DNA of 60,816 bases from a virus: positions 1-60,816 of the IMG/VR virus record IMGVR_UViG_3300037882_001949. The stretch is one strand, 5' to 3'. Below the pieces are notes generated by a model. That model was not told the origin of the DNA. It saw nothing but the letters and a program-made list of their open reading frames with translations, and made no database searches. Every line of letters begins with the position of its first letter. Position 1 is the stretch's first letter. The position numbers and the translations under genes were made by a program. Below are positions 1 through 58,757 of the stretch, piece after piece.

Positions 1-130
1 TACAATTATTACATATTATTTTAACTTTAGATTTTGCATTTATATAAGTTACTAAAGAATAATCATATTTATCATTATGTACAATTTTTGCTTTTTCAAT
101 AAATTGTTTTGTTGTTAAACGTTTTTTCAT
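1..130 (-). CDS. Partial DUF723-like protein, N-terminus (homing-nuclease-associated)
   Basis: This gene runs off the left edge of the window on the minus strand; only about 43 N-terminal residues are visible. They contain FIEKAKIVHNDKYDYSLV and YINAKSKVKIICNNC, the pattern of the DUF723-type repeat (FI.KA..IHG.KYDYS), which is common in phage proteins carrying a nuclease domain such as HNH or Vsr-like. The assignment is from family memory; the catalytic part would lie outside the window. A near-consensus host-type promoter reads into it at 135-166, leaving almost no leader. It is divergent from the gene at 193 and lies close to a NAMPT gene already invaded by mobile elements, so a homing role is plausible but not shown. 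Confidence 0.6.
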   Translation of the reverse strand, partial: MKKRLTTKQFIEKAKIVHNDKYDYSLVTYINAKSKVKIICNNC

Positions 131-134
131 AATA

Positions 135-166
135 CAAAGATAGTGAATAGTTCTGTAAATACCAAA
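135..166 (-). promoter_or_regulatory. Bacteroidota-type promoter for the leftmost minus-strand gene
   Basis: Read on the minus strand, a TTTG box (163-166) is followed after exactly 20 bases by TATCTTTG (135-142), a perfect match to the Bacteroidota consensus TTTG-N19/20-TAnnTTTG. The start codon at 128-130 lies only four bases beyond the -7 box, so the transcript would be leaderless or nearly so, or translation starts further in. Confidence 0.6.
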
Positions 167-192
167 TTATTTAACAAATATTTTAATAAAAA

Positions 193-678
193 ATGAAAAT
201 AACAATAACGGATAATCCAGATACAACTTCAAATGATGCTTTATTAGCTAATAATATATCTTTTGATGAGTTTTGGCAAAAACACATTTGTCCAAATACT
301 GAATATGAAGAATTAGAATTTTTTGATGAACCAACAGGAATAAGAACTTTTAATTCTATTTATATCAAAACACCTTTTTTAGTAGAAGATATAATAAAAA
401 TTGTATGTAGTTTTGAAAGAGGTGAAGATGATTATGATATTATAGCTAATGCAGGATATGGACAAACATCATCTATGACAAGAAGAAGTATAGTTGGTAA
501 AAAGGGTATATATAGAGTATCTCCAGATTGCATTGAAGATATAAGCATAAAACCTTTAAAAGAATTTTCTAAAGATTATCCTAAATTTAATCGTAAAATT
601 TATGAAACTCTTATGAATGCTGTGGATGATTTTTATGATAATTTAAGAAAAAATATTAATAATGAAAACAAGAATTAG
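193..678 (+). CDS. Hypothetical protein, 161 aa
   Basis: I do not recognise this protein. It is acidic in its first half (EYEELEFFDEP) and lysine-rich at the end, with no signal peptide or membrane segment. A central stretch, IANAGYGQTSSMTRRS, looks like a folded core. It ends in TAG and overlaps the start of the NAMPT reading frame by 17 bases. Its position just upstream of a NAMPT fragment lacking its N-terminal part raises the possibility that it sits inside a further intervening sequence, but no group I core elements were seen in 1-660. Confidence 0.65.
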   Translation: MKITITDNPDTTSNDALLANNISFDEFWQKHICPNTEYEELEFFDEPTGIRTFNSIYIKTPFLVEDIIKIVCSFERGEDDYDIIANAGYGQTSSMTRRSIVGKKGIYRVSPDCIEDISIKPLKEFSKDYPKFNRKIYETLMNAVDDFYDNLRKNINNENKN

Positions 679-2050
679 ACAATTAACAGAACAAGAAAAA
701 CGTTCAAAAGGTGAACAACAAATGATTACTGATTGGTTGAAGATATTCCCTAAAGGTATTCTTTCTATTGTATCAGATACATTTGATCTTTGGAAACTAA
801 TTACTGAATATTTACCAGCTAATAAAGAAGCTATTATGAAAAGAGAAGGTAAATTAGTAATTAGACCTGATTGCTATTCAGAAGATACTTTGTTTTTAAC
901 CAATTATGGTTGGAAAAATATTGATGCTATAAAACAAGGGGCATTAGTAGCACAAGTAGAAGAAGATGGAAGCTATACTTTTGTACAACCAAGTAGAATT
1001 ATAGATGAACCGTATGAAGGTGAAATGTATAAATATACAGATTTTCATGGTAAAATGGATTTACTTGTTACGCCTAATCATAGAATGGTTTATAAACAAT
1101 TTGATAATTGGAAAGTAGATTATGCTGAAAACTGTAAACCTAATAATTATACAAAACAATTTATTAGAAGTGCGAAGGCGGTAAATAAAGGTAGAAAACT
1201 TTCTTTTATAGAAAGATTGAATATTGCTTTTCAAGCTGATGGTAGTTACCAAACAGGCGTTACTTCATCAATTAGATTTAGTTTTTCTAAAATAAGAAAA
1301 ATCCAAAGATTAGAAAATTTACTTAGAGAAAATAATATTGAATATACTACTTATAATCTAGGTGACGGTAAAACTGAATTTAATATTAAAATAGATAAAT
1401 CACAAGTAAGTAAAGATTTTAACTGGGTAAATATTAATAATTTATGCTCTAACTGGTGTCAAGAATTTATAGAAGAACTTTCACATTGGGATTCATCTAT
1501 TAGAAATGATGGAAGAATAAAGTTTGATACTACAAATACTGCTGTAATTTACACTGTTGAACTTATTGCTTTATCTTCTGGATATGGTTGTTTGATTTCT
1601 GAATATGAAGATGAAAGAAGTGAACTTTTTTCTAAAGTCTATACTGCTAATATTTTAATAGAAAATAAACTTGGAGGTCAATCTGTACAAGTAGAAAAAA
1701 CAACTTATAAAGGAAATATAGTTTGTGTTACTGTACCTACAGGTAGAGTTGTTGTTAAAAGAAACAGATGTACAATGGTTTGTGGTAATAGTGGGGATCC
1801 TGTTGATATTATTTGTGGGACTTCTGTAGGTTTAAAAGGTAAACCCTATGAAAAAGGAGTAATTGAATTACTCTGGGACATCTTTGGTGGCACTGTCAAT
1901 GAGCAAGGATATAAAGTTCTTGATCCTCATATTGGAGCAATCTATGGTGATAGTATTACGACTGAACGTCAAGTACAAATATATGAAAGATTGGCAGCTA
2001 AAGGTTTTGCAGCTACTAATATTGTATTAGGTGTAGGTAGTTTTACTTAA
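662..2050 (+). CDS. nampt: Nicotinamide phosphoribosyltransferase (NAMPT) fragment carrying an intein (exon 1, stops at an in-frame TAA)
   Basis: NAMPT makes nicotinamide mononucleotide from nicotinamide and PRPP; phage NAMPT can rebuild NAD+ in cells whose defences destroy it. NAMPT signatures are FPKGILSIVSDTFDLW (residues 29-44), KLVIRPD followed after the intein by SGDPVDIICG, then DPHIGAIYGDSIT and NIVLGVGSFT. The RPDSGDP loop contacts the substrate in NAMPT enzymes and is split by the intein after Asp70. The N-terminal 200 or more residues, including the catalytic His of the AEHS motif, are absent here. At 2048-2050 a TAA stands where NAMPTs have Tyr in SFTYQY; the downstream codons (QYNTRDTLG, 2051-2077) continue the family sequence to the intron at 2078/2079. 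As it stands the product is truncated: an error, a nonsense mutation or a decaying gene. Confidence 0.85.
   Translation: MKTRIRQLTEQEKRSKGEQQMITDWLKIFPKGILSIVSDTFDLWKLITEYLPANKEAIMKREGKLVIRPDCYSEDTLFLTNYGWKNIDAIKQGALVAQVEEDGSYTFVQPSRIIDEPYEGEMYKYTDFHGKMDLLVTPNHRMVYKQFDNWKVDYAENCKPNNYTKQFIRSAKAVNKGRKLSFIERLNIAFQADGSYQTGVTSSIRFSFSKIRKIQRLENLLRENNIEYTTYNLGDGKTEFNIKIDKSQVSKDFNWVNINNLCSNWCQEFIEELSHWDSSIRNDGRIKFDTTNTAVIYTVELIALSSGYGCLISEYEDERSELFSKVYTANILIENKLGGQSVQVEKTTYKGNIVCVTVPTGRVVVKRNRCTMVCGNSGDPVDIICGTSVGLKGKPYEKGVIELLWDIFGGTVNEQGYKVLDPHIGAIYGDSITTERQVQIYERLAAKGFAATNIVLGVGSFT
872..1789 (+). mobile_element. Intein (about 306 aa) with degenerate LAGLIDADG-type endonuclease, inserted in NAMPT RPD/SGDP
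   Basis: The intein spans residues 71-376 of the frame starting at 662. It begins with Cys (CYSEDTLFLTNYGWKNIDAI, block A), has the block B TPNH motif in DLLVTPNHRMVY, and ends with NIVCVTVPTGRVVVKRNRC (block F) and MVCGN followed by the +1 extein Ser (block G). Cys1, the TxxH motif, the terminal Asn and the +1 Ser are all present. The penultimate residue is Gly rather than the common His, as in some active inteins. The centre (IAFQADGSYQT and later FIEELSHWDSSI) resembles the two helices of a DOD/LAGLIDADG endonuclease. Removing it joins RPD to SGDP, the uninterrupted family motif. Confidence 0.9.
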
Positions 2051-2078
2051 CAATATAATACAAGAGATACATTAGGGT

Positions 2079-3261
2079 TGAGTTTTCACAACTGCGAGCC
2101 CCCTTATACAGTGATGTATATTGAATAATTGGAAGAATTGCTGGGAAGTGTTTAAAATCATTATCAGCAGCCGAGTCTCATGGAAGTATGAGGAAGGTTC
2201 AGAGACTAGGGACACTATGGTGAGCCCACAGCATCCAACTACTTGTAAATCAAGTAGATGATATAGTCCAATAAAATTTAACAATAATTTAACATTAAAA
2301 AGTTGCAACCTTAAGATAAATGTCGTAATTTTATACTAAATTAAAAGTATAAATATGAGAAATTGGAATAAATGGACAGAAGAAGATGTAGAATATCTTA
2401 AAGAAATCTATCCTAATGGAGAATCTAAAGGTTGTATCAAGTTACATGATAAATTTACTTTATCCGCAATTAAATATAAAGCAATTAAGTTAGGTATTAA
2501 ATCTAATAATTTTACAAAATGGTCTTTAGAAGAAAAATCTTTACTAATAGAATCTTGGAAAAAAGATACAATGAAAGAATTATTAAATAAATTTCCTAAT
2601 AGAAATTATAATCAACTAATCCATAAAGCTAGTCAATTAGAAGTAAAGTCTGAAACTAATAGAGCTAGAAAAGGAAGTTTAGAATTTTTAAATGAATTAA
2701 ATCTTAAAAGTTGTTATTGGTGGGGATTTATAATAGCTGATGGTCATATATCACATAAAGGAGAATTGGCAATAACTTTATCAAATTTAGATAAAGAACA
2801 CTTGTTAAAATTATCTAATATTTTAGATTGTAATATTTCTGAAAAAGGAAATTTTGTACATCTTAGAATAGGAGATAAATCTTTTGGTGAAAAATGGCTT
2901 AATACACTATCTATAAACGCACCTAAAACATATTTTCCTCCAGATTTATCAATATTCTACACAAAAGAATATTTATTACCTTTTGTTATAGGATTAATTG
3001 ATGGTGATGGGTGTATATGGGAAAGTAAAAATTGGTTAAATTTAAGAATAGAACTGCACGGCAAGTGGTTAAATACTTTACAATTAATATCTGATAAATT
3101 AAAAGAATTTTATGATATTAATTGTAAAATAAAAACTAGTAAACGTGGTTTTTCTCAACTTAATATTAATACTAAAAAGGATTTAAAAATTCTTAAAGAT
3201 TATATTTGTAATGTTGATTATTTAGAAAGAAAATGGAACAAACTAAGCAACCTATAAAGTG
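2079..3261 (+). mobile_element. Group I intron with internal homing endonuclease, inserted in NAMPT
   Basis: Classical core elements are present: an R-like element GTTCAGAGACTA at 2197-2208, an S-like element AGATGATATAGTCC at 2256-2269, and P/Q-like segments before them (ATTGCTGGGAA and TTATCAGCAGCCGAG, about 2137-2175). Splicing after T2078 and G3261 follows the group I rule (exon ends in U, intron ends in G) and joins T to TC to give Phe, restoring GFAAKGAW, equivalent to GFAMKATW of other NAMPTs. GCCC at 2098-2101 could pair with GGGT at the end of exon 1 as the guide. The endonuclease gene lies 3' of the S element, in the P9 region, and ends four bases before the 3' splice site. Confidence 0.9.
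2355..3257 (+). CDS. Intron-encoded LAGLIDADG homing endonuclease
   Basis: This 300-residue protein carries two LAGLIDADG-type motifs, WGFIIADGHIS (about residues 123-133) and FVIGLIDGDGCIW (about 213-225), as expected of a single-chain two-domain enzyme with both acidic metal ligands kept. The N-terminal 95 residues contain two tryptophan-containing helical repeats (WTEEDVEYLKEIYP and WSLEEKSLLIESW) resembling Myb/SANT-like DNA-binding modules, a frequent companion of phage homing enzymes. It would cut the intron-less NAMPT allele and drive intron homing. It lies wholly inside the group I intron. Confidence 0.9.
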   Translation: MRNWNKWTEEDVEYLKEIYPNGESKGCIKLHDKFTLSAIKYKAIKLGIKSNNFTKWSLEEKSLLIESWKKDTMKELLNKFPNRNYNQLIHKASQLEVKSETNRARKGSLEFLNELNLKSCYWWGFIIADGHISHKGELAITLSNLDKEHLLKLSNILDCNISEKGNFVHLRIGDKSFGEKWLNTLSINAPKTYFPPDLSIFYTKEYLLPFVIGLIDGDGCIWESKNWLNLRIELHGKWLNTLQLISDKLKEFYDINCKIKTSKRGFSQLNINTKKDLKILKDYICNVDYLERKWNKLSNL

Positions 3262-3611
3262 TCGCAGCTAAAGGAGCTTGGTTTGAAGTACAATCTAATA
3301 AACTAGCAGGACATGGAGATTGTGGAACAAATTGTGTAAATGAGGATTGTAAATCAGATGATTGTCGTCATTCATATAATATCTACAAAGACCCAATTAC
3401 TGATGATGGTACTAAAAAATCTTTGAAAGGATTATTGTGTGTAAGCAGACATAATGGACCTAAAAATGATATTCTTGATGAAGGAGAAATTTATGTTATT
3501 CAAGAATGTTCTTCACAAGGAGAAGATAAAGGTTTATTACAAATAATCTATGAAGATGGTAAATTTTATAATTTTCAAACACTAGAAGAAATAAGAAATA
3601 AATTAAGATAA
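3262..3611 (+). CDS. nampt: NAMPT exon 2 (C-terminal part)
   Basis: Joined to T2078, this exon reads FAAKGAWFEVQ, then a cysteine-rich insert (CGTNCVNEDCKSDDCRH), IYKDPITDDGTKKSLKGLL, and ends at TAA 3609-3611. GF-A-K-x-W and KDP-T-D-GTKKS-KG are characteristic of the C-terminal region of bacterial and phage NAMPTs. The cluster of four Cys and one His in about 17 residues is unusual for the family as I know it and might bind metal. The first codon is completed across the splice junction, so the exon has no start of its own, although a methionine-less TTG at 3423 could initiate a short peptide. Confidence 0.85.
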
Positions 3612-3620
3612 ATTTAATTA

Positions 3621-3715
3621 TTGTACCAACAACCTCTGACTCAAGGTCAAGTGTTGAGTTCCCTAGATATGTAACGTTCTAACTCTAGGTAGCTATATAA
3701 GAATGTTTAGTACAA
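3621..3715 (+). ncRNA. Candidate structured RNA downstream of NAMPT
   Basis: No credible gene lies here. The segment is closed by TTGTAC (3621-3626) pairing with GTACAA (3710-3715). Inside are CAACA/TGTTG and CTAGA/TCTAG helices, giving a multibranch fold, followed by a terminator at 3729-3757. It does not fold as a tRNA. Function unknown; it could be a processed small RNA or the 3' untranslated region of the NAMPT transcript. Confidence 0.4.
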
Positions 3716-3728
3716 GGCTTATATTAAT

Positions 3729-3757
3729 CCAGAGAGCTAAAGTCGTCTGGTATTTTT
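3729..3757 (+). terminator. Rho-independent terminator candidate after NAMPT
   Basis: A short CCAGA/TCTGG stem (3729-3733 with 3746-3750) is followed by TATTTTT. It lies 20 bases before the next gene. The stem is only five pairs, so termination may be weak. Confidence 0.45.
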
Positions 3758-3777
3758 AAACTAAATAATTAAAACTT

Positions 3778-4023
3778 ATGAAAAAATTACTTTTAATATT
3801 ATCAATAATAACAATTACATTAACTAATTGTACTGAGAATCAAAGAGCTAGAAATTTTGGAGGAAAAGAGAAGCTTTCATTACCAACAAATCATGTATTA
3901 ATTACTTGTTGTTGGAAACAAGATGATTTATGGCTTTTAACAAAAGATACTATAACAAATACTTATTATTGTAGAGAAAAATCATCGTGGGGTATTTGGA
4001 ATGGTGAAATTATAATCAAATAA
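3778..4023 (+). CDS. Small predicted lipoprotein, 81 aa
   Basis: The protein starts MKKLLLILSIITITLTNCTEN: two lysines, a hydrophobic core, and a lipobox (LTNC) with Cys at about residue 18, so it should be exported and lipidated. The mature part is about 63 residues with two adjacent Cys (ITCCW) and several Trp. Short phage lipoproteins often act at the envelope against superinfecting phage; that role is inference only. It follows the terminator at 3729-3757 and is followed closely by the gene at 4052. Confidence 0.7.
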   Translation: MKKLLLILSIITITLTNCTENQRARNFGGKEKLSLPTNHVLITCCWKQDDLWLLTKDTITNTYYCREKSSWGIWNGEIIIK

Positions 4024-4051
4024 CAATAAATAATAAACAAATATATAACAA

Positions 4052-4243
4052 ATGAAAAAACAAGTAAAAAACACAACTAAAACATCTCAATCTATTAGTA
4101 CTCATACCAAAGTAAGTAAAGGTATTTATAAACAAGTAAGTGGTAAATATGCAGTAAGACCAACAGTAAATGGTAAACGTTTACATGTTACTTTTACAAG
4201 TATTAAAGCTGCTAAAGCTTATTTAAAAGGTATTAATGGTTAA
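4052..4243 (+). CDS. Small basic protein resembling an AP2/integrase-type DNA-binding domain, 63 aa
   Basis: The sequence is strongly basic. After a Ser/Thr-rich N-terminus it has GIYKQVSGKYAVRPTVNGKR, then LHVTFTSIKAAKAYLKG. Short beta strands (GIY-KYAVRP-KRLHVTF) followed by one helix fit the AP2-like or integrase N-terminal three-strand fold that binds DNA, as in proteins attached to homing nucleases or integrases. This is a fold-level guess. A perfect terminator follows eight bases after the stop codon. Confidence 0.7.
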   Translation: MKKQVKNTTKTSQSISTHTKVSKGIYKQVSGKYAVRPTVNGKRLHVTFTSIKAAKAYLKGING

Positions 4244-4250
4244 TTAATTT

Positions 4251-4279
4251 ACAGGGGATTAATTTCCCCTGTATTTTTT
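4251..4279 (+). terminator. Strong rho-independent terminator
   Basis: ACAGGGGA (4251-4258) and TCCCCTGT (4265-4272) form a perfect 8-bp stem with a six-base loop, followed by ATTTTTT. It closes the transcript carrying the genes at 3778 and 4052. Confidence 0.9.
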
Positions 4280-4301
4280 AAAATTATTTAAATTAAATTA
4301 T

Positions 4302-4817
4302 ATGAAAATATTAAAAATAAGTGAAGATAAAGCATTAAATTTATATAAAGATGCTTCTAAAGAATTAAAAGAAATATTAGAAGATTCTTTTGGTAAAGAA
4401 TTTTTTAAACCTAAATCAATTACTGATAGAATTAAAACTATTGAAGATGTGTTTGAAGAATTAGGTGAGGATTATAATGATTATATACCACCTTTTCCAA
4501 AAGCTAAAACAAAAGAAGAAAAATCATGTAATGCTCAAATGTTATTGTTTAAAATAGCTAAAGTTTATAATGAAGGAACTATTTTAGATTGGAAAGATTC
4601 AAATCAACCTAAATATTTTAATTATAAGTATTTTTCTGGCGGTTCTTGTTTGGTTGATTCTCTTAGTTGGAATACTTATTGTAGTTATTCGGCTGGTTTA
4701 TTTTATAAAAGTAAATCATTAAGTGAAGATTCTTATAATAAATTTAAAAATATTTATAACGATTATTACCTCTTGGTAAAAAATAAATACTTAAAAAGGA
4801 TTTTAGTAAATAATTGA
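4302..4817 (+). CDS. Hypothetical protein, 171 aa
   Basis: Not recognised. The N-terminal 60 residues are helical and charged (DKALNLYKDASKELKEILED). The C-terminal half is rich in Tyr, Ser and aromatic residues (FSGGSCLVDSLSWNTYCSYS), with two Cys but no membrane segment. The helix-then-beta arrangement is common among Bacteroidota phage proteins of unknown function. It is the last plus-strand gene before the convergent late block and ends 28 bases before the bidirectional terminator. Confidence 0.75.
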   Translation: MKILKISEDKALNLYKDASKELKEILEDSFGKEFFKPKSITDRIKTIEDVFEELGEDYNDYIPPFPKAKTKEEKSCNAQMLLFKIAKVYNEGTILDWKDSNQPKYFNYKYFSGGSCLVDSLSWNTYCSYSAGLFYKSKSLSEDSYNKFKNIYNDYYLLVKNKYLKRILVNN

Positions 4818-4844
4818 AAGATTCCTGATGAAAGTAAATAAACT

Positions 4845-4880
4845 AAAACCCCCAATTACAATTAAGTAATTGGGGGTTTT
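4845..4880. terminator. Bidirectional terminator separating the plus-strand left arm from the late block
   Basis: A perfect 15-bp inverted repeat (AAAACCCCCAATTAC with GTAATTGGGGGTTTT) has a six-base loop. It gives a T run on the plus strand and an AGTTT tail on the minus strand. It lies exactly between the converging genes ending at 4817 and 4906. Confidence 0.95.
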
Positions 4881-4905
4881 TTATTAATACCGTTATTTAT
4901 AAATA

Positions 4906-7900
4906 TTATTTTTTAATATAACTATCTTTATTCCATAATCTAGCAACATCAACTACAGGTTTAACTACAGGTATTACTGAAAGTAAACTACCTACAAATT
5001 TATTTTCATCTTTTTTACTACCTCTCTTAAATTTATCACCAGTAATTATACTAGGTGAATATTGTATAACCTTAAACAAATCCTGCATAGTTTTAAGCAT
5101 TGGTATACTTAATTTAGCAGGGTCTGTTAAAGCTTTAGGATTATAAAAGTATAATAAATCACCACTAATTTGATTTAATTGATTTATCATAAATTTATAA
5201 CTAGGGTCTTTACGTTTTTTATCATCTTCAAAACCAACACCTGCTAATATTGTAGCTAATATTAAAGTTAATTCAGTATAATTCTTACGCATATTATATA
5301 AATCAGTTTCATTAAAAGTATATTTTTCAATAGATTCTATATCACTTTGTAATTTAGCAATCATTAATTTAAATCCTTTAACATAAGTTCTATATCTACC
5401 TTCAATAGTCATATCTAATCTTTCATCAAACCTTTCACTACCAAATCTACTTTCAATAGCAGCAGGTATCCACTTTTTAAATTGAAAAACAGATCTAAAT
5501 AAACTATATTGTTGTAATATTGCAGAATCTTTAGCTGAATATCTACCATGAATCATCTGATTAATTCTATGAATTTTATTAGTAGTTTTAAATATAGTAT
5601 TATCATCAAGTTTCTCACCCATTAATTCTACTTTCCATTCACCTTTTTCATCAAAAGCATCCCACATATTAATAATATTACCATCTTTAGTTTTAACCTT
5701 AGTATGTAATAATAATGCTATCATAGTACTAGTTTGCATTTGTTTTTCACCCATTCTTTGAGGTAAATACATTAAAGATTTAATTTTATCTTTATATTCA
5801 TTAGAACCAACATTAATCTTTTCTAGGTTGGTATAATCTTCCAACTCCATTAAAGGATTAAATAATGCTGATATTTTATTTAACTTAGAATCTTCAACCA
5901 TGTTTTCAGCACTGAATATCTTAATTGCTTTTAAATAATCTTTAGTGTTAAAATGTTTACCGCCAATAGCTTCAATTAAGTTACCTATATTACCTATAAC
6001 AGCATTTGTAATAGCATTAAAAGGATTTAAACCTATTCTAAGTAGTGAGGTATACTTAAGCATAAAATCAATATGTGGAGCATATTTTTCTTCTTTCTTA
6101 GATTCACCTAATACTTGCATTTTAATAAATCCATCAACAATTTTATTTAAATTACTCTCTTCACCATTAATAGTTCTATTTTTATTAGTACTTTTAATGA
6201 AATCCTGTTCTTTAATTACCTCTTGAAATAACCTTGTTTTAGGTAATATTTCAGTCATTTGTTCATAAGAGTTAGTAAAATACATAAACTTTAATAAAGA
6301 TGAACCTAAGTCTTTAGATTTGACTTCTGAGCTTATTTTACCAACATACTTAACTGGTACTTCATCTTTAATTAATTCTTCATCTAAAAGCAATCCTGAC
6401 TGTTTACCTTCACTAATTTCTAACATATAGTTAATACTATCTTTCATTTTACCAGTAATATTCTTATCAGATTTTAATATATCTAATAGTGATTGTTCAA
6501 CTATATTAGGTATAAAATCACTAGATATTTTATCAGAATATTGTTTAGGTAATTTACTTTTAATTTCATTAATTTCCCTTTGAAAGAAATCATAAAACTC
6601 TTTTAACTCTTTAGTATTTTGTATTATTTTATAGTTATTATTAACATATTTACTATCTCTTGGTTTAAATTGTCTATTAATAGAATCATAAGTAGCTATT
6701 TTATTTCTAAAAGCTTTACCTTCATCAGGTTTCATTTTAAAACTCTTACTAATTTCATTATAAAATTCAGTAGTGTAAGGTTTAGTAAGCGTTAAAGTAC
6801 CATTATATTCTTGTATAAATGTGTCATATATACTATCACCTTTTAATCCTTTAGAATTCTGATAAGTAGTTAATTTATCAACAGCCTCTTTAACCTTAGT
6901 AAAAGACTTCTTATTATTAATCTCAATTATATTCTGAGCTTTTTTAATTAATAAACCTATAGTTTTAGCTAAATAATTCTTAATATCAGCTAAAGTACTA
7001 AAATTAGCTTCTAAAGCTGAAATATCAGTATCAACAGTATTAAATATAGTTTCATCAAACTCTTTACCAGTAACACTATTCATCTCATCTAAAATATATG
7101 TTTTAGCATATTTCATAGTTATTTCTAATAAACCTGAAACTCTATCTTTAACACCTACAAGATTCTCTAAAGTATGTAATACTTTAACAGTTTTATCAAT
7201 ATTATTAACATTTGGTTTATTACCACTATTAATAACTTGCTCTAAACCATCTAAATAACTTTCAATTTCATCTAAAGTTTCATTAGCTAAATTTAATAAA
7301 GCTTGTTTATTATTATTTTCTAATAATTCTTTTAAACTTGATTCTATTTTTTCAATTTTAGCTTTAGTTTCATCATATTCTTTACTATCTACAGTTAATT
7401 TTTTTAAAGTATTCTTTAATTTACCTGATAATTGACTATAATAAACATATTCTGGTCTTATTTTCTTATCTAAAACCTTAGTTTTATTATCTAAACTATA
7501 TAAAGTAAGGTTTAAACTATCAACTTCATTAATCTTTTTACCAGTTAATATATAATTAGATAATTGTTTACTTAAACTATCTAATTCATTTTCTATATTA
7601 GAATTAGGGTTAAAAAGCTTTATAAAGGCTTTTAAGAGGTTTTTAATAGTTTCCCATAACTTTATACCATCTTCACTATTTAATTCATTAGGAAGCATTG
7701 TATTAGCTATTTGTTTAGCTATTAATTTACCTAAGAATTCGTGTTTTAATAGATTATCATCATTATTATAAGCATCAACATACTCTTTACCTAATATCTC
7801 TTTATAATTTAATCTTGAAATAAGATTTAAAGACCTTTTAACCAATATATGTTCATCACCTAAAGCTAAAGTTAAATGATGCGCTAATTCTTCTGGAAAA

Positions 7901-8421
7901 GTCTCTAAATCAGCTTTATTAATATTAATCTTAATAACTCTACTAACACTATCCCATAATGCTACAGGGTCTAATTCATTAATAGCTGTTTCAAAGAATT
8001 CAACTTTAATATTATTAACCTTAGCATAATCATCTAAAAGAGTCTTGATTCTTGATGATAATTCATTTTTTTTATTTACCGTTTCTTCAGATAAACTAAA
8101 CATAGTAGTTTGAGTACCATATTTCTTCTCATAAGCATCAATTAACTTACTAGGTATAGTAATATCTACAATAGTACCATTAGGATTACTATTATTATCA
8201 ATTTGTACTAGACTACCATAAAATTTAGCTTGAAAAGTATTATCCAAATCTTTCTTAACTCTTCTAGCCCATTCATTAGTTTGGTCTTTAGTTTTAAGTT
8301 TTTCACTACCTATAGGTAATATTATCTTATTAGGTTTAAGTAAAGAAGCTGATGTTTTACCAACATTATAGGCTTCTATTATTTTATCTCTTATTTCATT
8401 TATAGCACAATTCCTATTCAT
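4906..8421 (-). CDS. Giant virion protein with zincin-like N-terminal region, C-terminal partner of the virion RNA polymerase cassette
   Basis: This 1171-residue protein is the last gene of the late block and is joined to the RNA polymerase gene by a TAATG overlap at 8421. Around residues 174-185 the sequence FPEELAHHLTLAL matches the zincin helix seen in crAss-like giant proteins, but Glu replaces the first His of HExxH, so peptidase activity is doubtful. The middle (about 330-620) is helical and charged with likely coiled coils. The C-terminal third contains Gly/Ile-rich hydrophobic stretches (LRIGLNPFNAITNAVIGNIG, LTLILATILAGVGF) that could contact membrane. In crAss-like phages proteins encoded beside the polymerase are packaged and ejected with DNA; that role is inferred from position. 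Confidence 0.8.
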   Translation of the reverse strand: MNRNCAINEIRDKIIEAYNVGKTSASLLKPNKIILPIGSEKLKTKDQTNEWARRVKKDLDNTFQAKFYGSLVQIDNNSNPNGTIVDITIPSKLIDAYEKKYGTQTTMFSLSEETVNKKNELSSRIKTLLDDYAKVNNIKVEFFETAINELDPVALWDSVSRVIKININKADLETFPEELAHHLTLALGDEHILVKRSLNLISRLNYKEILGKEYVDAYNNDDNLLKHEFLGKLIAKQIANTMLPNELNSEDGIKLWETIKNLLKAFIKLFNPNSNIENELDSLSKQLSNYILTGKKINEVDSLNLTLYSLDNKTKVLDKKIRPEYVYYSQLSGKLKNTLKKLTVDSKEYDETKAKIEKIESSLKELLENNNKQALLNLANETLDEIESYLDGLEQVINSGNKPNVNNIDKTVKVLHTLENLVGVKDRVSGLLEITMKYAKTYILDEMNSVTGKEFDETIFNTVDTDISALEANFSTLADIKNYLAKTIGLLIKKAQNIIEINNKKSFTKVKEAVDKLTTYQNSKGLKGDSIYDTFIQEYNGTLTLTKPYTTEFYNEISKSFKMKPDEGKAFRNKIATYDSINRQFKPRDSKYVNNNYKIIQNTKELKEFYDFFQREINEIKSKLPKQYSDKISSDFIPNIVEQSLLDILKSDKNITGKMKDSINYMLEISEGKQSGLLLDEELIKDEVPVKYVGKISSEVKSKDLGSSLLKFMYFTNSYEQMTEILPKTRLFQEVIKEQDFIKSTNKNRTINGEESNLNKIVDGFIKMQVLGESKKEEKYAPHIDFMLKYTSLLRIGLNPFNAITNAVIGNIGNLIEAIGGKHFNTKDYLKAIKIFSAENMVEDSKLNKISALFNPLMELEDYTNLEKINVGSNEYKDKIKSLMYLPQRMGEKQMQTSTMIALLLHTKVKTKDGNIINMWDAFDEKGEWKVELMGEKLDDNTIFKTTNKIHRINQMIHGRYSAKDSAILQQYSLFRSVFQFKKWIPAAIESRFGSERFDERLDMTIEGRYRTYVKGFKLMIAKLQSDIESIEKYTFNETDLYNMRKNYTELTLILATILAGVGFEDDKKRKDPSYKFMINQLNQISGDLLYFYNPKALTDPAKLSIPMLKTMQDLFKVIQYSPSIITGDKFKRGSKKDENKFVGSLLSVIPVVKPVVDVARLWNKDSYIKK

Positions 8422-57628: not shown

Positions 57629-58757
57629 ATGAAAACATTTAAAATTGAAACATGTTCTTGCGGTTGTGGTAAATCATATCCTGTAGGAAAATCTAAACCA
57701 GCTGGTTGGAAACAAGAAGGTAATTCTGTTATTAGATTATCAGATAATGTAAAATTCTCTAAAGGTGATATTATACAAAGATTTACTGAACAAGGTAAAC
57801 AATATTGTGATATGATTATTAGCGATATTGATTTTTACTATAAAGGAAAAGATAGTAATCTTAGAGATACTTTTTATATAAGAGCTAAAATAGTTGAAAA
57901 TGCTGATATTCCTGAATATGTAAAATGTATTAAACAAATTTATGAAAATGATAATCCTAAAATAGGACAAATTATTAAAGCTGATATAAATGGTAATTTA
58001 CATGGTATATGTATGTATAATTCTATAACTTATAAAGATAATTTTATACCATCAACTAAAGAAGAATATGATGCTCAATTTGTTAAAAAAGATTATGAGA
58101 TATTATCTTTTAAAGTAAATACTTGCAAGTATACGTTAAAAGATAGTCAAAATGTATATAGCAACGGCATATTTAGCTATACATTAGAAAAAATATTATT
58201 TTATTTAACTGCTGTAAATAATCCAAGTGTAATACATAGTGTTAAACGTCTATCAGATGGTGAAATTTTTACTGTTGGTGTTTTGGGTACAACTTATTAT
58301 TTCAGGTGGATGGGAAAGTAATAATACAATATTATCAAAAATAGAAATATTAAATAGTAATGTTATATTTTATATTAATCAAAATGAACATAAAAATTTT
58401 AAATATGAACATGGTATAAATAATTGGAGAAAGTATATTCCTAAACAACCATTATTTAAAACTGAAGATGGTATTGATATTTATGAAGGTGATTCATTTT
58501 ATTGTGTAGATATTGGTCTGGTTAATAATTTTAAACCTTTTCCTAGATATGGTGGAGATGGTTTAGATTATAAATCTATAGAAGTTAAAAGTAGATGTTT
58601 TAAAGAATACAAAGCTGCTGAAAATTACATTAAATGTAATAAACCATGTTTATCATTAACAGAAGTATTAAATAATATTGATGGTTTAAATATATTAAAC
58701 AGAGATAATATTAAAAATAATATAACTAAACTAGTTAAATCTAAGTTAAATTTATAA
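57629..58757 (+). pseudogene. Hypothetical phage protein split by a one-base frameshift
   Basis: The first frame (57629-58321) has CSCGCGKSYPVGKSKPAGW at its start and HSVKRLSDGEIFTVG near its end. The second (frame of 58239-58757) continues with ISGGWESNNTILSKIEILNS, then KTEDGIDIYEGDSFYCVD and AAENYIKCNKPCLSLTEVL. In Bacteroidota phage proteins RLSDGE-F-VGD and EDG-EI-EGD segments occur together in one chain. Deleting one G of the GGG at 58285-58287 gives TVGVLVQLIISGGWESN and restores one frame of about 375 residues. Function unknown; the N-terminal Cys motif may bind zinc. Confidence 0.65.

Follow-up and report, generated by a model that had tools for sequence, protein, structure and literature searches.

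A probable recent pseudogene of phage Namat bearing the marks of three kinds of homing element

The Namat C-terminal half-gene located at positions 662–3611 of a Crassvirales phage contig was probably hit by three kinds of homing element, namely a free-standing endonuclease gene that split the enzyme in two, an intein, and a group I intron, and now contains a stop codon that would disable it. Unless the stop is an error, the gene copy is probably a recent pseudogene. The window analysed here is the complete IMG/VR virus record IMGVR_UViG_3300037882_001949 of 60,816 bases, a fragment of a Crassvirales genome as identified by its capsid (PF23898, E 2.1e-134) and terminase (phrog_6681, E 5.1e-123). 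The elements, their insertion sites, and the stop are read directly from the nucleotides. A previous sequence-only reading described the region as a NAMPT gene interrupted by an intein and a group I intron; the third homing element, the half-gene status, the in-frame TAA, and the Namat type go beyond it.

The assignment of positions 662–3611 to the NAMPT family holds (Pfam NAPRTase 1.3e-21; NCBIfam PRK09198 2.2e-68), and the NAMPT fold and RPD catalytic motif are present. However, the gene is not whole, since only positions 238–393 of the 465-position NCBIfam model are matched, and a Namat-like enzyme fits better than plain NAMPT. The N-terminal half of Namat was not found anywhere in the 60.8-kb window. 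The coding sequence, which is on the plus strand, consists of the first extein segment of 70 residues (662–871), the second extein segment forming the remainder of exon 1 (1790–2078), and exon 2 with the C-terminal 116 codons and the stop (3262–3611). The first segment begins with the basic sequence MKTRIRQLTEQEKRSK, and unsplit relatives lack such a start.

The intein (872–1789, plus strand) is 306 residues long, contains a LAGLIDADG-type endonuclease, and extends from Cys1 to a terminal Gly-Asn followed by Ser in the +1 position. Both of its ends are intact, and its removal restores the RPD|SGDP sequence of the substrate loop, in agreement with the sequence-only reading. The nearest relatives, which came from a collection of named phages, are the inteins of Staphylococcus phage Stab20 and Citrobacter phage Tr1, positioned at the identical NAMPT site and sharing 50.6% and 47.6% full-length identity with the window intein. 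Cys1, TPNH, QADGS, and GN|S are conserved among the three. Alignment with Stab20, Tr1, and Stab23 identified the intein signatures, which are the N-terminal Cys, the TxxH motif (TPNH), the C-terminal Asn, and the +1 Ser. Staphylococcus phage Stab23 (L208) contains a different intein at PA|TEHS in the His-loop, beside the site at which the genes of other phages are split by endonuclease genes. Searches of IMG/VR with the intein alone or with the intron endonuclease alone returned no relatives; the relatives of the intron came from a pattern search for the intron core.

The group I intron (2079–3261, plus strand) is 1183 nucleotides long and has its catalytic core at 2079–2292. The Rfam model RF00028 matched positions 2075–2292 with 55.0 bits (gathering threshold 50; E 1.4e-13 when searched alone) in a scan of a 291-base stretch, and the lack of a group I match in scans of the whole window and of positions 1–8000 is a filter effect. 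In the alignment of the core with 19 other phage introns, 22 of the 33 consensus pairs have at least one two-sided change, and the introns of L207 and L049 pass the Rfam threshold by themselves. Folding the core as a single sequence gave no useful information (z −1.5). Joining of position 2078 to 3262 restores LGFAAKGAWFEV at the LG|FAAKG motif, part of the GFA-K-W region in which the intron had been placed previously. The internal guide (2092–2101, plus strand) can pair through CTGCGA (2092–2097) with TCGCAG of the 3′ exon (3262–3267) to form P10, and through GCCC (2098–2101) with GGGT of the 5′ exon (2075–2078) to form P1. The pairings CUGCGA:UCGCAG and GGGU:GCCC, the latter with a U·G pair at the 5′ site, are complemented by G3261 as the last intron base. 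A homologous intron occupies the same position of another split NAMPT-family gene, L173, in which P10 is TTGCAA:TTGCAA, with two compensatory changes. Because the P1/P10 pairing co-varies with that of L173, the previously proposed junction 2078/3262 is supported to the base, and the transcript is predicted to be spliced there. The intron encodes a 300-residue LAGLIDADG endonuclease (2355–3257, plus strand; Pfam LAGLIDADG_3 4e-7, LAGLIDADG_1 6.9e-5) that is 40% identical to the LAGLIDADG open reading frame (ORF) of the L173 intron. The gene thus contains two independent selfish elements, each with a LAGLIDADG-type endonuclease, as the sequence-only reading had stated.

The in-frame TAA (2048–2050, plus strand) is located in exon 1, 28 nucleotides before the intron, at the position of Tyr394 (SpbetaL1 Namat numbering) in the substrate clamp helix. 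The corresponding residue in 71 relatives is Tyr in 64, Met in five, and Phe and Leu in one each. The stop survives both RNA and protein splicing, and therefore the frame remains interrupted even after the intein and intron are removed. In SpbetaL1 Namat, NAD+ is contacted by Tyr396 and the loop Thr398-Arg399-Asp400 (PMC12774641), all of which would be missing from a chain ending at the TAA. A 5′ splice site upstream of the TAA was rejected, because its use would remove the conserved QYNTRD. All the other near-invariant columns after the leader/tail region are kept in the window copy. The ratio of nonsynonymous to synonymous substitution rates between the window and L003, its closest split relative, is 0.14 before the stop and 0.64 after it, and the value after the stop for the intact pair L003–L004 is 0.50; by this comparison, exon 2 is under normal constraint. 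Since the near-invariant columns are kept and the constraint on exon 2 is normal, the stop is either recent or an error. Most likely, the window copy is a very recent pseudogene that would be inactive, unless the TAA is a sequence error. The restoration of NAD+ proposed in the sequence-only reading is unsupported for this copy, because the contig lacks one half of the gene and the other half contains a stop; nor is an anti-defence function of the copy supported.

The TAA could also stem from an error of sequencing or assembly or from a minority variant, which is possible but rather unlikely and would make the window gene a working split Namat C-half with an intein and an intron. The stop differs from a sense codon by a single substitution, the exons, including exon 2 downstream, are otherwise perfectly conserved, and a strict pattern search of the TAA context found no other IMG/VR contig with a stop there. 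The contig also contains an apparent frameshift elsewhere. However, its very long uninterrupted ORFs (3513, 1495, and 1171 residues) indicate that the general error rate is low.

The encoded enzyme is likelier to be a NARP1-type Namat, a nicotinamide ADP-ribose transferase with the NAMPT fold, than a salvage NAMPT because of its closest structures, its clamp residues, and the Adps-like neighbour in its relatives; as a Namat, it would use ADPR-PP. The best solved relatives are the Namat structures 9W5X/9W5W with 213 bits, whereas mammalian NAMPT reached at most 56 bits. The clamp helix aromatics Phe392 and Tyr396, which mammalian NAMPT lacks at the equivalent positions, are encoded in the sequence GSFT-QYNTRD aligned with 9W5X, with Tyr396 after the stop in the window copy. 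The clamp loop (SCL) falls in the missing N-half. An Adps-like (ribose-phosphate pyrophosphokinase-like) gene adjoins Namat in L003, L049, L173, L257, and L272, and is absent from the window, itself a genome fragment. These features speak against an ordinary phosphoribosyl pyrophosphate-dependent NAMPT for NAD salvage, which is improbable even though general NAMPT-family models match the sequence and the HdNadV structures 9KE8/9KEO, titled as complexes with NMN (nicotinamide mononucleotide) and NAM (nicotinamide), are also fairly close. In L049, an ORF flanked by the Adps-like gene and Namat (3084–3638) appears macro-domain-like by eye and is possibly an ADP-ribose-handling partner.

Read-through or suppression of the TAA, resulting in a low level of the full C-half, is very doubtful. 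The persistent constraint on exon 2 is consistent with it, and crAss-like phages are known for suppressor tRNAs, which are for UAG and UGA (PMC7886860). However, TAA terminates 18 of the 20 window genes sampled, and the six tRNAs of the window (Thr, Leu, Met, and Arg identified by ARAGORN; Phe and Trp by eye) include no ochre suppressor. Global reassignment of TAA was rejected, because the codon terminates most genes.

The splitting of Namat into two genes is observed in relatives of the window, and we infer it for the window from synteny, from the basic leader that it has in common with L003, and from an endonuclease gene fragment at the left edge. In L003, a 97-kb crAss-like contig with a capsid match, the N-half (1885–2766) and C-half (3810–4682) each have their own gene, and the interval contains a small ORF and an antisense HNH gene. 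The C-half leader MKTRIRQLTEQEKRS is common to the window and L003, as is the noncoding spacer (131–192 of the window), in which 75 of 80 bases match around L003 3375–3450. An exact 39-base piece of the spacer occurs in only one other IMG/VR contig, the L003 record. The sequence TATCTTTG on the minus strand of the spacer resembles the Bacteroidota −7 promoter element. To the left of the spacer, a free-standing endonuclease gene of HNH type runs off the contig, with only its first 43 codons present (1–130, minus strand; phrog_559 HNH endonuclease, E 1.2e-8; phrog_681 endonuclease, 2.8e-8). Antisense HNH genes occupy the equivalent place in L003 and L049. The window gene differs from that of L003, and synteny with L003 suggests that it sits between two Namat halves. 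The capsid and terminase of the window and L003 are only 29–39% identical. Because the two phages share the split locus yet are otherwise distant, the locus has moved laterally. Together with the intein kin in Stab20 and Tr1 and the intron kin in L173, this supports the exchange of the gene among phages suggested in the sequence-only reading. A single unsplit Namat with an intein and an intron, its N-half missing as a contig artefact, is hardly credible: the contig ends 661 nucleotides upstream of the Namat half, but that stretch contains, instead of Namat, an ATG start with the L003-shared leader, an unrelated ORF, and the start of the antisense endonuclease gene.

Splitting of Namat has recurred at one site. 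The survey covered about 174 loci, including some duplicates. A single, intact ORF encodes the enzyme in 166 of them. In seven distinct loci the gene is divided, always immediately behind the catalytic-histidine strand, between EHS and the FPxG motif that follows. Two ORFs of one protein with an endonuclease gene between them were found in six loci (L003, L021, L049, L173, L257, and L272), whereas the window holds the C-half and the endonuclease 5′ end only. The genes in L003, L049, and L173 belong to one HNH family, are 47–56% identical, and occur in both orientations. L021 is split by a GIY-YIG gene (Pfam SegE_GIY-YIG), L257 by another HNH-like gene, and L272 by a further endonuclease-like gene, the last two typed by eye. 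No gene remains in L082, which contains a 26-residue remnant similar to the GIY-YIG protein of L021 (score 58; best of 300 shuffles 38). A quick tree of C-halves with eight split genes, including that of the window, requires eight changes, at least six of them forced by well-supported branches; a careful tree with six split genes requires six changes, four of them forced. L272 and L279 constitute a natural occupied/empty pair, with flanks 94% and 90% identical and 34 nucleotides replaced by 969. A genome scan identified three loci only, two of which are in Dokdonia and Polaribacter metagenome-assembled genomes. A split intein at the His-loop was rejected, since the C-half leader does not contain an intein C-terminus. 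The HNH gene between the Namat halves of L173 (10700–11330, minus strand) has several in-frame TAG codons, suggesting that TAG is read as an amino acid. A further apparent group I intron, which contains an HNH ORF, interrupts the N-half of L049 itself, so that the gene is in three pieces (3657–4013, 4099–4722, and 4843–5325).

The N-half tails are acidic (net charge −3 to −9) and the C-half starts basic (+2 to +6) in the five split loci scored, and the C-half start of the window has a net charge of +4. The equivalent segment in 65 unsplit ORFs, near-copies included, ranges from −5 to +1. By inspection, L257 fits the pattern and L272 fits it weakly. Shuffles showed that tail similarity is significant within the groups L003, L049 and L021, L082, L257; a single tail common to all split loci, suspected by eye, is not claimed, as the shuffles support only the two groups. 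Tail and body similarities are discordant, since the bodies of L257 and L272 are 80% identical and their tails unrelated. In the AlphaFold2 model of L257, the fold of which matches Namat structures, the tail forms a β-hairpin with strands 256–262 and 268–275 (block predicted local distance difference test scores of 86 and 70). The acidic tail and basic leader may dock the two halves. We tentatively propose, at slightly worse than even chances, that unrelated free-standing endonuclease genes (HNH, GIY-YIG, and others) insert repeatedly at a hot spot in the His-loop of phage Namat, that tail and leader dock the halves into a two-chain Namat, that the endonuclease can later be lost and the split kept, as in L082, and that the window gene is such an allele with an added intein and group I intron.

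Based on the sequences of the window and its relatives, a history of the locus can be proposed. A free-standing endonuclease gene probably inserted after the catalytic-histidine strand and split the enzyme into two genes. An intein invaded the RPD|SGDP substrate loop, and the LG|FAAKG motif received a group I intron of the LAGLIDADG kind. Intact relatives probably produce the halves as separate chains that then associate to form a single enzyme, perhaps aided by the acidic N-half tail, a β-hairpin in the one modelled case, and the basic C-half leader. In the window copy, only a truncated chain would be made after RNA and protein splicing. Some observations weigh against this history. The N-half of the window gene is outside the contig, and therefore the split of the window gene is deduced rather than seen. 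The apparent frameshift at about 58,280–58,313 of the same contig makes an error at the TAA more plausible. In a model of the C-half alone, the leader is predicted to be disordered.

The individual parts of the locus are of known kinds. Namat of phage SpbetaL1 (NARP1; 9W5X/9W5W; PMC12774641) resembles the window gene in its fold family, RPD motif, Phe392 and Tyr396, TRD loop, and, with respect to the relatives, Adps-like neighbour, but is a single uninterrupted chain, whereas the window copy is a half-gene with an intein, an intron, and a stop. The Aeromonas phage Aeh1 genes nrdA-a and nrdA-b with mobE (PMC2988022, PMC3653736) similarly encode an enzyme cut into two chains by the insertion of a free-standing endonuclease gene at a conserved site, and T4 gene 60 is another enzyme gene split in this manner (PMC3653736, PMC2988022). 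In contrast to Aeh1 nrdA, the Namat site has been entered by endonuclease genes from several families (two HNH types, GIY-YIG, and others), which occur in both orientations, the split is kept in L082 without an endonuclease, and acidic tails are shared. In Bacillus phage SPbeta, nrdE, likewise a gene of nucleotide metabolism, has both a group I intron and an intein, but a split by a free-standing endonuclease is not mentioned in the excerpted account (PMC3653736). The NAMPT genes of Stab20 and Tr1, with inteins 48–51% identical at the identical RPD|SGDP site, are otherwise unsplit. CrAss-like phages of the Delta and Zeta groups are rich in group I introns and inteins, several per gene, in the genes for the major capsid protein, TerL, PolB, and primase; excerpts of that study do not list Namat as a host gene (PMC7886860). 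Neither the accumulation of three kinds of element in a single anti-defence gene nor the recurrent splitting of Namat at the same site turned up in the papers searched in an open-access library, and both appear to be new.

Namat counters NAD-depleting bacterial defences. If homing endonucleases target its gene continually, an anti-defence enzyme is being shaped by selfish elements, and phages have to cope with an enzyme that is in two chains and undergoes several splicing events, or else give it up. The loci form a natural series of unsplit genes, split genes, a split gene without endonuclease, a split gene with an intron, and a split gene with an intein, an intron, and a stop, together with the near-identical pair L272/L279. 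This series makes the long-standing question of how enzymes withstand such division directly testable by a simple NAD assay.

Upstream of the Namat half, an ORF of 161 residues with unassigned function (193–678, plus strand) overlaps the start of the half-gene by 17 nucleotides and had no significant family in profile searches. About 165 nucleotides of noncoding sequence (3612–3777) follow Namat. Weak Rfam matches below the gathering threshold to RT-18 (4767–4837) and NsiR1 (4815–4884), the second over an ordinary terminator hairpin, are probably due to chance. Near the right end of the window, two overlapping plus-strand ORFs in different frames (57629–58321 and 58239–58757) match consecutive parts of the phrog_11079 family, with the apparent frameshift between about 58280 and 58313.

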